A stretch of DNA of 64,000 nucleotides from Planococcus sp. MSAK28401 (lineage in GTDB: Bacteria > Bacillota > Bacilli > Bacillales_A > Planococcaceae), in the NCBI RefSeq assembly GCF_018283455.1, contig NZ_JAAMTH010000001.1:2895501-2959500 (forward strand), in the 5' to 3' direction. Below are positions 18,176 through 20,206 of this stretch, one piece after another (the first letter of the stretch is position 1; each line of letters begins with the position of its first letter). The position numbers and the translations under genes were made by a program. The notes beneath the pieces are model-generated. The model did no database searches, was not told the origin of the DNA, and saw nothing but the letters and a program-made list of their open reading frames with translations.

Positions 18176-18805
18176 ATGGGAATTCACCGTTTTTTCACCT
18201 CATTAAATGATTTGGAGCGGATCATCCGGGCACCGGGCAGGTTCAAATTTGAAGAGCATAATGTTGCCGCACATTCCTGGAAAGTCAGCCAGTATGCGAT
18301 GTTCTTCGCTACAATCGAAGAGCGCGAAGGCCGTCCTGTCGATTGGAAATCCCTCTATGAACGGACCATCAACCATGATTTTGCGGAAGTATTTATCGGG
18401 GACATCAAAACCCCGGTGAAATACGCATCCCCCGAACTCAAGGAAATCCTGGCGAAAGTCGAAGAAGGGATGATGGAGAAATTCATCTTAAAAGAAATTC
18501 CAGAAGAATTTCAGGAAGTGTTTTTCGACCGCATGAAAGAAGGAAAAGACGAGTCGCTCGAAGGCAGGCTGTTGGAGTTTGCCGATAAACTCGATCAATT
18601 CTACGAAGCGTTCGCGGAGCTGAAGCGCGGAAATACCGATAAGGAATTTCTGAAAATGTACCGGATTGCACTCAGCAAGATCCTCGATCTTCCACTCACT
18701 GCCAGCGTCGATTATTTCCGCGATGTCATCCTTGACGATATCATGATAGAGGATACGGCAATTGATATCCGCAAAATCACCAAGCGCGTGCTTGAAGCCC
18801 ATTAA
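18176..18805 (+). CDS. YfbR-like HD-domain 5'-nucleotidase
   Basis: A 209-residue cytosolic metal-dependent phosphohydrolase. HD residues are seen in EEHNVAAHSWKVSQYAMF (first His pair, about residues 27-34), INHDFAEVFIGDIKTPVK (the HD pair, about 67-68) and LLEFADKLDQFYEAFAELK (distal Asp). E. coli YfbR removes phosphate from deoxynucleoside 5'-monophosphates and the Bacillus relatives are annotated likewise. Substrate preference here is inferred. The ATG follows AAGGAGTCGTTTTTT. It is a single gene with a sigma-A promoter, followed by the CNNM/CBS gene in the same direction. Confidence 0.85.
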   Translation: MGIHRFFTSLNDLERIIRAPGRFKFEEHNVAAHSWKVSQYAMFFATIEEREGRPVDWKSLYERTINHDFAEVFIGDIKTPVKYASPELKEILAKVEEGMMEKFILKEIPEEFQEVFFDRMKEGKDESLEGRLLEFADKLDQFYEAFAELKRGNTDKEFLKMYRIALSKILDLPLTASVDYFRDVILDDIMIEDTAIDIRKITKRVLEAH

Positions 18806-18859
18806 TGGATTTTCTGGGCATCCCTCGCTGACTTGTGATAAATTAGAACAAACTACCTC

Positions 18860-18892
18860 GGAGGTGAATCCCTTATTTAAGGGAATTTATTG
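18860..18892 (+). promoter_or_regulatory. Shine-Dalgarno with hairpin bridging to a TTG start
   Basis: GGAGGTG (18860-18866) is 23 bases from the TTG start at 18890, too far for normal initiation. Between them is a perfect 6-bp stem with 4-base loop, TCCCTTATTTAAGGGA (18869-18884). Folding it out leaves seven bases, the optimal spacing. No other start codon lies in frame between an upstream stop (18878-18880) and the TTG. Confidence 0.65.
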
Positions 18893-20206
18893 GACCCCAT
18901 ACTTTTACTGAATTTAGCTCTTCTCGTTTTACTCATTGCATTAACCGCATTTTTTGTCGGCACGGAATTTGCTGTCGTCAAAGTCCGCATGTCGCGCATC
19001 GAACAACTGATCGAGGAAGGCAATAAGCAAGCCGTCATTGTCAAAAAAGTCGTTGGCGACTTGGACTATTATTTGTCCGCTTGCCAGCTTGGCATCACGG
19101 TGACCGCCCTTGGCCTCGGATGGCTCGGGGAACCAACTGTTGAGCGCCTTCTCCATCCTCTATTCGACTGGCTGGGCGTGCCTTCAGCCGTGTCGACGAT
19201 CGTCTCGTTCGCCTTTGCTTTTGCGCTGGTGACATTTTTGCACGTCGTCATCGGGGAATTGGCGCCGAAATCGCTGGCACTTCAGTTTGCGGAACGGATG
19301 ACTTTGTCATTGGCCCCTGCGCTTTATATCTTCGGGAAAATCATGTATCCGTTCATTTTCGTCTTGAACGGCTCTGCCCGTTTGCTGCTTCGCATGTTCG
19401 GTGTGGAACCTGCAGGCGAGCAGCAAGCCCATTCAGAAGAAGAACTGAAGATTATCATGGCGCAAAGTTTCCAGAGCGGTGAAATCAACCAGACGGAGCT
19501 TTCCTATATGCAGAATATCTTTGCATTCGACGAGCGCAGCGCCAAAGATGTCATGATCCCGCGCACACAAATGGTCGCTTTTCCAGACGATTTGTCCACT
19601 GAGGAATTGCTCGCTGAACTTCGGGAGCACCGCTTTACGCGCTACCCGATTGCACGCGACGGCGACAAAGATGACCTGATCGGTTTCATCAATGCCAAAG
19701 AAGTGCTGACCTATTATGCAATCAACAGCAATGTCCAAATGACGGAACTCATCCATAACCTTCCGTATTTCCACGAGACGACGCCTCTGCAGATGGCGCT
19801 CGTGAAAATGCAGAAAGACCGCACCCACATTGCCCTTGTCATCGATGAATACGGCGGCACATCCGGCCTGATCACGATGGAAGATATCCTCGAAGAAATC
19901 GTTGGGGAGATCCGGGATGAGTTTGATGAAGAAGAAGAAGCTGAAATCGTGAAAGAAAGCGATACCCGCTACATAGTGAATGGCCGCGTCCTGTTGAAAG
20001 ATTTGGAAGAGCGATTTAGCCTGAAATTTGCAGATAGCGACGAAATCGATACGATAGCCGGATGGATGCAGCATCAGCTCATCGAAGCCGAAGCCGGAGA
20101 TTCTTTTGAAAAAGGCGGCTACCACTGGGAAATCATCGCCATGGAAAATCACCATATCCTCAAAATCGCTTTTGAGAAACTCGAAGAGCCGGAAATCAAC
20201 GCGTAA
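18890..20206 (+). CDS. CNNM/CorC-family membrane protein with CBS domains (hemolysin-type)
   Basis: A 438-residue membrane protein. Residues about 1-190 are the CNNM/DUF21 domain with four membrane segments and the motifs [37 protein letters not shown] and [12 protein letters not shown]. Two CBS domains follow (about 205-330, with [13 protein letters not shown] and [22 protein letters not shown]), then a C-terminal CorC/HlyC domain. Relatives (B. subtilis YhdP, YqhB, YugS, YrkA) are linked to magnesium export. The start codon is TTG, required because the first membrane segment begins at once; initiation appears to depend on the hairpin described at 18860-18892. Confidence 0.88.

Follow-up and report, generated by a model that had tools for sequence, protein, structure and literature searches.

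Bridging of a ribosome binding site by a hairpin has its best-known examples in phage T4, where the Shine-Dalgarno (SD) sequences of genes 38 and 25 lie 22 and 27 nt from the start and are brought by structure to 5 and 11 nt, respectively; destabilising mutations lower initiation at these genes, the arrangement of gene 25 being confined to close T-even phages (PMC3014915). The initial annotation of the locus described here had invoked T4 gene 38 as a precedent, and that review confirms it.

The window analysed here is a stretch of 64,000 nucleotides from the chromosome of Planococcus sp. MSAK28401. It carries a distant SD, a hairpin and a TTG start ahead of a gene of the CNNM family, with the following features:

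18857..18898, + strand: match of covariance model R1 (63.2 bits); the window leader belongs to the model's 24 training rows, and the match holds by construction
18860..18867, + strand: distal SD GGAGGTGA, one base before the hairpin
18869..18884, + strand: hairpin (5' arm 18869-18874, loop 18875-18878, 3' arm 18879-18884)
18878..18880, + strand: in-frame TAA, from sequence reading
18879..18883, + strand: AAGGG in the 3' arm, a weaker SD-like stretch at ordinary spacing to the TTG; a masked proximal SD in a rival reading
18885..18889, + strand: tail from hairpin to start, 5 nt; across 57 distinct class-level elements it spans 4-8 nt, the descriptor permitting 4-9
18890..18892, + strand: TTG start codon, retained in 45 of the 45 genus genomes having the orthologue
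18890..20206, + strand: CNNM-CBS-CorC_HlyC protein of 438 aa, from the family of MpfA magnesium efflux proteins

From 18857 to 18898 the sequence runs CTC GGAGGTGAA TCCCTT ATTT AAGGGA ATTTA TTG GACCCC. The SD GGAGGTG (18860-18866) and the TTG at 18890 are separated by 23 nt (18867-18889), the 6-bp stem pairs TCCCTT (18869-18874) with AAGGGA (18879-18884) around the loop ATTT (18875-18878), and 7 nt are left between SD and TTG when the hairpin is looped out. This reading confirms the anatomy given initially, namely a distant GGAGGTG, a 6-bp hairpin, a start at TTG 18890 and a stop at 18878, and because the TAA at 18878 is in frame, an in-frame start farther upstream is excluded. The assignment of the protein to the CNNM family was also right, since Pfam returned the CNNM domain (PF01595) at 171.6 bits, against a cut-off of 28.4, as well as CBS and CorC_HlyC domains; a finer protein name can only be inferred, because NCBIfam models match the 438-aa protein only below their cut-offs.

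Folding as good as that of the window element occurred in a fraction of 0.0023 of its shuffled spacers, and the 120-nt region overall was not more stable than its shuffles (z = 0.81). In the minimum-energy fold for this species, an ACCTC just upstream also pairs with the SD, a pairing that the letters of most orthologues do not permit. An Rfam search of positions 18700-19050, up to E = 10, gave two matches, neither overlapping 18857-18898. Slightly farther upstream, TGTGATAAATT at window positions 18834-18844 (ATGGTAAATT in many orthologues) stands about 15-25 nt before the SD and recurs in many Planococcus leaders; it is perhaps a -10 region, in which case the leader would be very short.

Judged from the sequences compared, the hairpin is real and conserved, and its decisive support is comparative. 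Among 46 genomes of the genus, own genome included, an orthologue was found in 45, the one lacking it (G022) having a 68% match only, at paralogue level. All 45 leaders (own included) retain GGAGGTGA, the hairpin and the TTG, and a single pattern, CGGAGGTGAATCCCTT, loop, AAGGGAA, four bases and TTGGACCCC, fits every one of them. Ten distinct loops occur among these leaders, with ATTT in 25 of the 45, and the loop has 4 nt in 40 of them and 3 nt in the other five. A peptide read from GTG 18864, in a 15-codon frame across the hairpin found by eye, was rejected, as 3- and 4-nt loops shift its frame. In a second collection of named records, of which the best 80 of 259 were kept, the 52 loci L039-L090 were read: the SD is followed after 15-45 nt by TTGGA or GTGGA in 47, and the arrangement is absent in five (Tenuibacillus, Aquisalibacillus and three Halobacillus). 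Stems resembling CCCTC/GAGGG or CCCTT/AAGGG were seen in Planococcus, Planomicrobium, Paenibacillus, Viridibacillus and Alkalicoccobacillus, and those of Peribacillus and Metabacillus are longer and of different sequence.

Covariance model R1 was built from 24 leaders, its alignment (A2/R1) leaving out L076 and L081-L083, which have longer hairpins and were misaligned. At order level, 82 of 261 genomes matched at E<=0.1, 46 of them from the genus itself; at class level, 102 of 398 matched at E<=0.01 (10 from the genus), in 22 of 145 genera by the tool's tally. Every one of the 66 match loci examined (L166-L231, comprising 26 returned best matches and 40 hand-picked for variety, eight of the 66 from the genus) precedes a CNNM gene, and the element is thereby linked to one gene family. 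Covariation was scored on alignment A4, which replaced A3 (31 opposite-strand part matches in the latter) and leaves out L081-L083 and L192. Across its 82 distinct aligned leaders 98.8% of the stem cells are paired, four of the six stem pairs have changed on both sides (46 cells vs 10.4 in shuffles) and the covariation score is 0.280 vs 0.097 in shuffles, counts that lean towards structure because the alignment was fitted to the model. When partners were slid by -1 as a control, pairing persisted in 92.4% of 249 cells, with a covariation of 0.051. The most variable pair, columns 20/42, occurs as CG, UA, AU and GC. Covarying stem bases in the 5' regions of orthologues, which the initial annotation had proposed to look for, are thus present.

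The arrangement is also repeated within the genome. Including the window gene, five of its seven CNNM genes have it, with different stems (TCCCTT/AAGGGA, TCCCT/AGGGA, CCCCC/GGGGG, CTCCC/GGGGG and a long one with CTTTGCG/CGCAAAG), four starting with TTG and one with GTG, GAGGTG replacing GGAGGTG in one, and with shuffle p from 0.0007 to 0.023; the leaders read for the other two (L332, L341) have no such arrangement. For one own-genome CNNM gene (L004, 920-990, C1:1919.5k), the longest mechanical ORF begins at ATG 953 inside the hairpin loop, and a family-consistent TTG lies at 965, 12 nt downstream; automatic annotation may misplace such a start. Scanning 400 kb, roughly a tenth of the genome, yielded two matches, both with AGGAGG, among 156 distant candidates (frames of at least 100 codons, score at least 14), and in the window one of 36 distant SD/start candidates passed, being the element itself, so that the arrangement is rare outside the CNNM family in the part sampled. 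The 464-kb sample of this genome contained no further GGAGGTG-hairpin-start frame of at least 100 codons. One site (L273, position 6642, minus strand) combines AGGAGG with a stem of 7 bp that lacks G-C pairs and with a 565-codon TTG frame; it is a possible, weak case of a non-CNNM split site in the same genome. In other phyla, GGRGGTG and GAGGTG are both absent from the 110 nt upstream of all 28 CNNM loci read (L091-L118, mostly Gastranaerophilales or related), every one of which has an ATG near the expected start.

To sample leaders by protein and not by hairpin, CNNM genes were taken with the Pfam model in 61 class-level genomes, and 110 leaders from 55 genomes were read; outside these stand four own-genome genes (read separately), one contig-end repeat, G275, three part matches and sub-cut-off matches. 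Near-identical genes are present in this sample, and the distance, pairing, terminator and SD-likeness tests used distinct spacers. An SD of GGTG type lies 14-68 nt ahead of an in-frame start in 64 of the 110 genes, and a hairpin was found at shuffle p<=0.05 in 59 and at p<=0.01 in 43, by base shuffles on the best of several SD/start options, uncorrected. The 59 hairpin-bearing genes are spread over 39 of 55 genomes, 29 of 42 genera and 20 of 30 families, and unrelated stem sequences are common, such as CCTTCGTTCT/AGAACGAAGG (L308), GTCTTACG/CGTAAGAC (L338) and TCGCCGG/CCGGCGA (L303). Orthologues that keep the distance without the stem, named at the outset as the finding that would speak against the reading, were not found: 59 of the 64 distant-SD CNNM genes pass the hairpin test, and of the five failing, L244, L259, L288 and L347 read as interrupted or very short hairpins and L296 is a probable false start. 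Doubtful among the 59 are L240 and L286 (chosen loops above 40 nt, ATG) and L297 (4 bp). All 59 encode proteins with an AEF-type motif (a simple pattern), which 86 of the 110 genes have and 24 lack; 27 of the 86 fail the hairpin test. Start codons in the 59 are TTG in 53 and ATG in six, and in the other 51, assigned by best ordinary SD, TTG in 23, GTG in six, ATG in 13 and without assignment in nine (ATG vs TTG or GTG, 59 against others, Fisher p 0.011).

An arm-swap permutation gave 0 of 5000, a result that is partly circular because the elements were chosen for pairing. Less circular is a test in which SD and start were picked blind to the hairpin: a score of at least 11 was reached by 54 of 59 distinct spacers, vs 8.6% of shuffles and 14% of 70 own-genome controls, and a score of 14 by 44 of 59, vs 2.1% of shuffles and three of the 70 controls. 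In L334 a second hairpin (GCTC ATTT GAGC) is nested within an outer TCCCCC/GGGGGA stem, and L321, L340, L344 and L347, from two genomes of one genus, have stems of 3-4 bp, one with a GAAA loop, which are among the smallest seen and are useful for the lower limit of bridging.

In the 57 distinct elements, the linear distance from SD to start ranges over 16-67 nt (32.6 +/- 10.7), and the distance with the hairpin looped out is far less variable, 7.9 +/- 1.6 nt, a narrowness to which the descriptor itself contributes in part by limiting the gap to 0-5 and the tail to 4-9 (total 4-14). Gap and tail length are not anticorrelated (rho 0.14, p 0.31). For comparison, GGAGGTG has its usual spacing of 5-6 nt at 11 of 12 sites in the 464-kb sample of the same genome. 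The looped-out segment measures 11-59 nt, and the hairpin is present in the minimum-energy fold of 54 of the 59.

These lengths also bear on whether the palindrome might be a DNA operator, or an intrinsic terminator or attenuator, instead of an RNA bridge. The window hairpin is an inverted repeat and appears terminator-like in a consensus scan; nevertheless, the sequences are unrelated between genes, 11-59 nt are looped out, the position is tied to the SD and the start codon, and, of the 57 distinct elements, seven have at least 5 T in the 8 nt after the stem and four have a run of at least 4 T, and we regard this explanation as very improbable.

The element is probably a split ribosome binding site that accommodates a hairpin, of the kind known from T4 genes 38 and 25 and in this case belonging to a cellular gene family. 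That the hairpin and its position are kept despite changes in letters suggests that it may serve to fold SD and start together so that the protein is made. The 30S subunit would bind the strong distal SD GGAGGUGA; the hairpin, almost directly after it, would stay folded and loop out its 11-59 nt; and the UUG, 4-8 nt past the stem, would fall in the P site at a workable total distance of about 8 nt, with selection retaining fold and position and not letters. We infer that initiation at the UUG would proceed through the distal SD with the hairpin folded, setting the expression of a Mg2+-exporter-type protein. The central claim of the initial annotation, a hairpin that bridges a distant SD to a TTG, has thus held, the stem letters turning over and the pairing, the SD, the position and, mostly, the TTG being kept. 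Counting against it are the 27 AEF-motif genes that fail the hairpin test and the frequent pairing of SD bases in minimum-energy folds (the SD is free in three of 59), although pairing with the tail does not exceed that with shuffled tails.

One finding is at odds with pure bridging: the 3' arm resembles an SD more closely than expected. Pyrimidines make up 83% of the 5' arm, which renders the 3' arm SD-like, and for this reason we considered a relay between two SDs, in which the purine-rich 3' arm (AAGGG, GAGGG, AAGGA) would be the operative SD at ordinary spacing, masked by the hairpin, and the distal GGAGGTGA a loading (standby) site from which the ribosome opens the hairpin and slides forward. 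In 57 class-level elements the 3' arm exceeds randomly flipped stems in SD-likeness (-6.4 vs -3.8 kcal/mol, p 3e-10), access to the distal SD explains little of this bias (unpaired 0.53 vs 0.51), and the proximal stretch reaches -6 kcal/mol in 38 of the 59, all of which a relay would accommodate. However, the proximal stretch is weak (above -5 kcal/mol) in 12 of the 57 distinct elements, whereas the duplex of the distal SD with the 16S tail is predicted at -10.6 kcal/mol or stronger in all 59 (mean -14.7, vs -7.0 for the best proximal stretch) and is the stronger of the two in 58 of 59; furthermore, the change at columns 20/42 turns the SD-like stretch into GAGGG, AAGGG, TAGGG or CAGGG. A relay is therefore, in our judgement, unlikely, and the folded, split site is preferred.

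A further question, raised in the initial annotation as a possible sensor of heat, ions or proteins, is whether the hairpin regulates. Temperature, Mg2+, a helicase or a protein might melt or stabilise it, so that the exporter is made on demand, and published work on these genes supplies the arguments for it. In B. subtilis, MpfA is the primary Mg2+ efflux pump and its paralogues are candidates (PMC8844918). The S. aureus MpfA is a proposed Mg2+ exporter, exporter or regulator being left open by the authors, and an initiator-tRNA mutation rescues the mpfA deletion, an effect they attribute to mpfB, whose start is GUG (PMC6711546). When S. aureus loses the DEAD-box helicase gene cshB, its mpfA mRNA rises under every condition of that study, with a larger effect in RPMI and at 25 C, possibly indirectly according to the authors (PMC5122736). 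The rise goes in the direction one would predict were CshB to open a translation-promoting hairpin. The helicase data, however, concern mRNA levels and not translation. Moreover, predicted stem stability varies about tenfold (-1.9 to -22.8 kcal/mol), and this range, together with the unconserved stem letters, leaves no tuned thermometer or sequence-specific protein site apparent. SD-tail pairing tested against shuffled tails showed no excess (p 0.77), hence no selection for closing pairs between SD and tail. A regulated switch consequently appears improbable.

In this context, three probably staphylococcal loci (L251, L254, L261), when counted from the TTG, have the S. aureus MpfA residues Y141, E183, I199 and G326 in all three and I32 in one, and L251 has 449 aa, equal to the published length of S. 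aureus MpfA; by this agreement of residues and length, the published MpfA numbering very likely starts at the same TTG. One might speculate, with considerable doubt, that the element is an old, family-wide device of Bacilli, in which a folded hairpin (at high Mg2+ or without helicase) would let the exporter be translated and opening by a CshB-type helicase would lower translation and lead to mRNA decay, which would explain the rise of mpfA mRNA in the cshB mutant.

If the split-site reading is true, it provides a cellular case across 20 sampled families of Bacilli, and dozens of natural hairpins looping out 11-59 nt become material for learning how the ribosome copes with structure that separates SD and start. 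Gene finders that expect the SD 4-12 nt before the start can miss or misplace such TTG starts, and the element would offer a testable handle on the control of Mg2+ exporters of the MpfA kind.

Among described systems, the extended SD interactions of S. aureus are alike in extended SD pairing and in frequent UUG starts (~9%), and differ in that neither 'hairpin' nor 'stem-loop' appears in the main text of that paper (PMC13009471). An 'intervening hairpin' named in another article concerns RNase Y cleavage and not ribosome binding (PMC11780869). No description of the CNNM-leader element was found in searches of the open PMC library. RNA thermometers and SD-sequestering hairpins share a short hairpin at the ribosome binding site; unlike theirs, the conserved stem of the CNNM leaders lies between SD and start and excludes both, and the extra pairing of the SD is unselected. 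In E. coli thrS the structured region is part of a repressor operator, whereas no conserved operator sequence is evident in the CNNM leaders. The thrS split site is nevertheless comparable, as a long hairpin there reportedly stays folded while the ribosome accommodates it (PMC3936740). Closest are T4 genes 38 and 25, in which, as here, an overly distant SD is brought close by intervening structure; in contrast to them, the present element is chromosomal, belongs to one membrane-protein family in 20 of the 30 class families sampled, has mostly TTG and not AUG as start, and has its stem letters replaced between genes. In brief, the kind of site is already known, and a family-wide cellular case with turnover of stem letters is, as far as our searches go, new within the literature searched.
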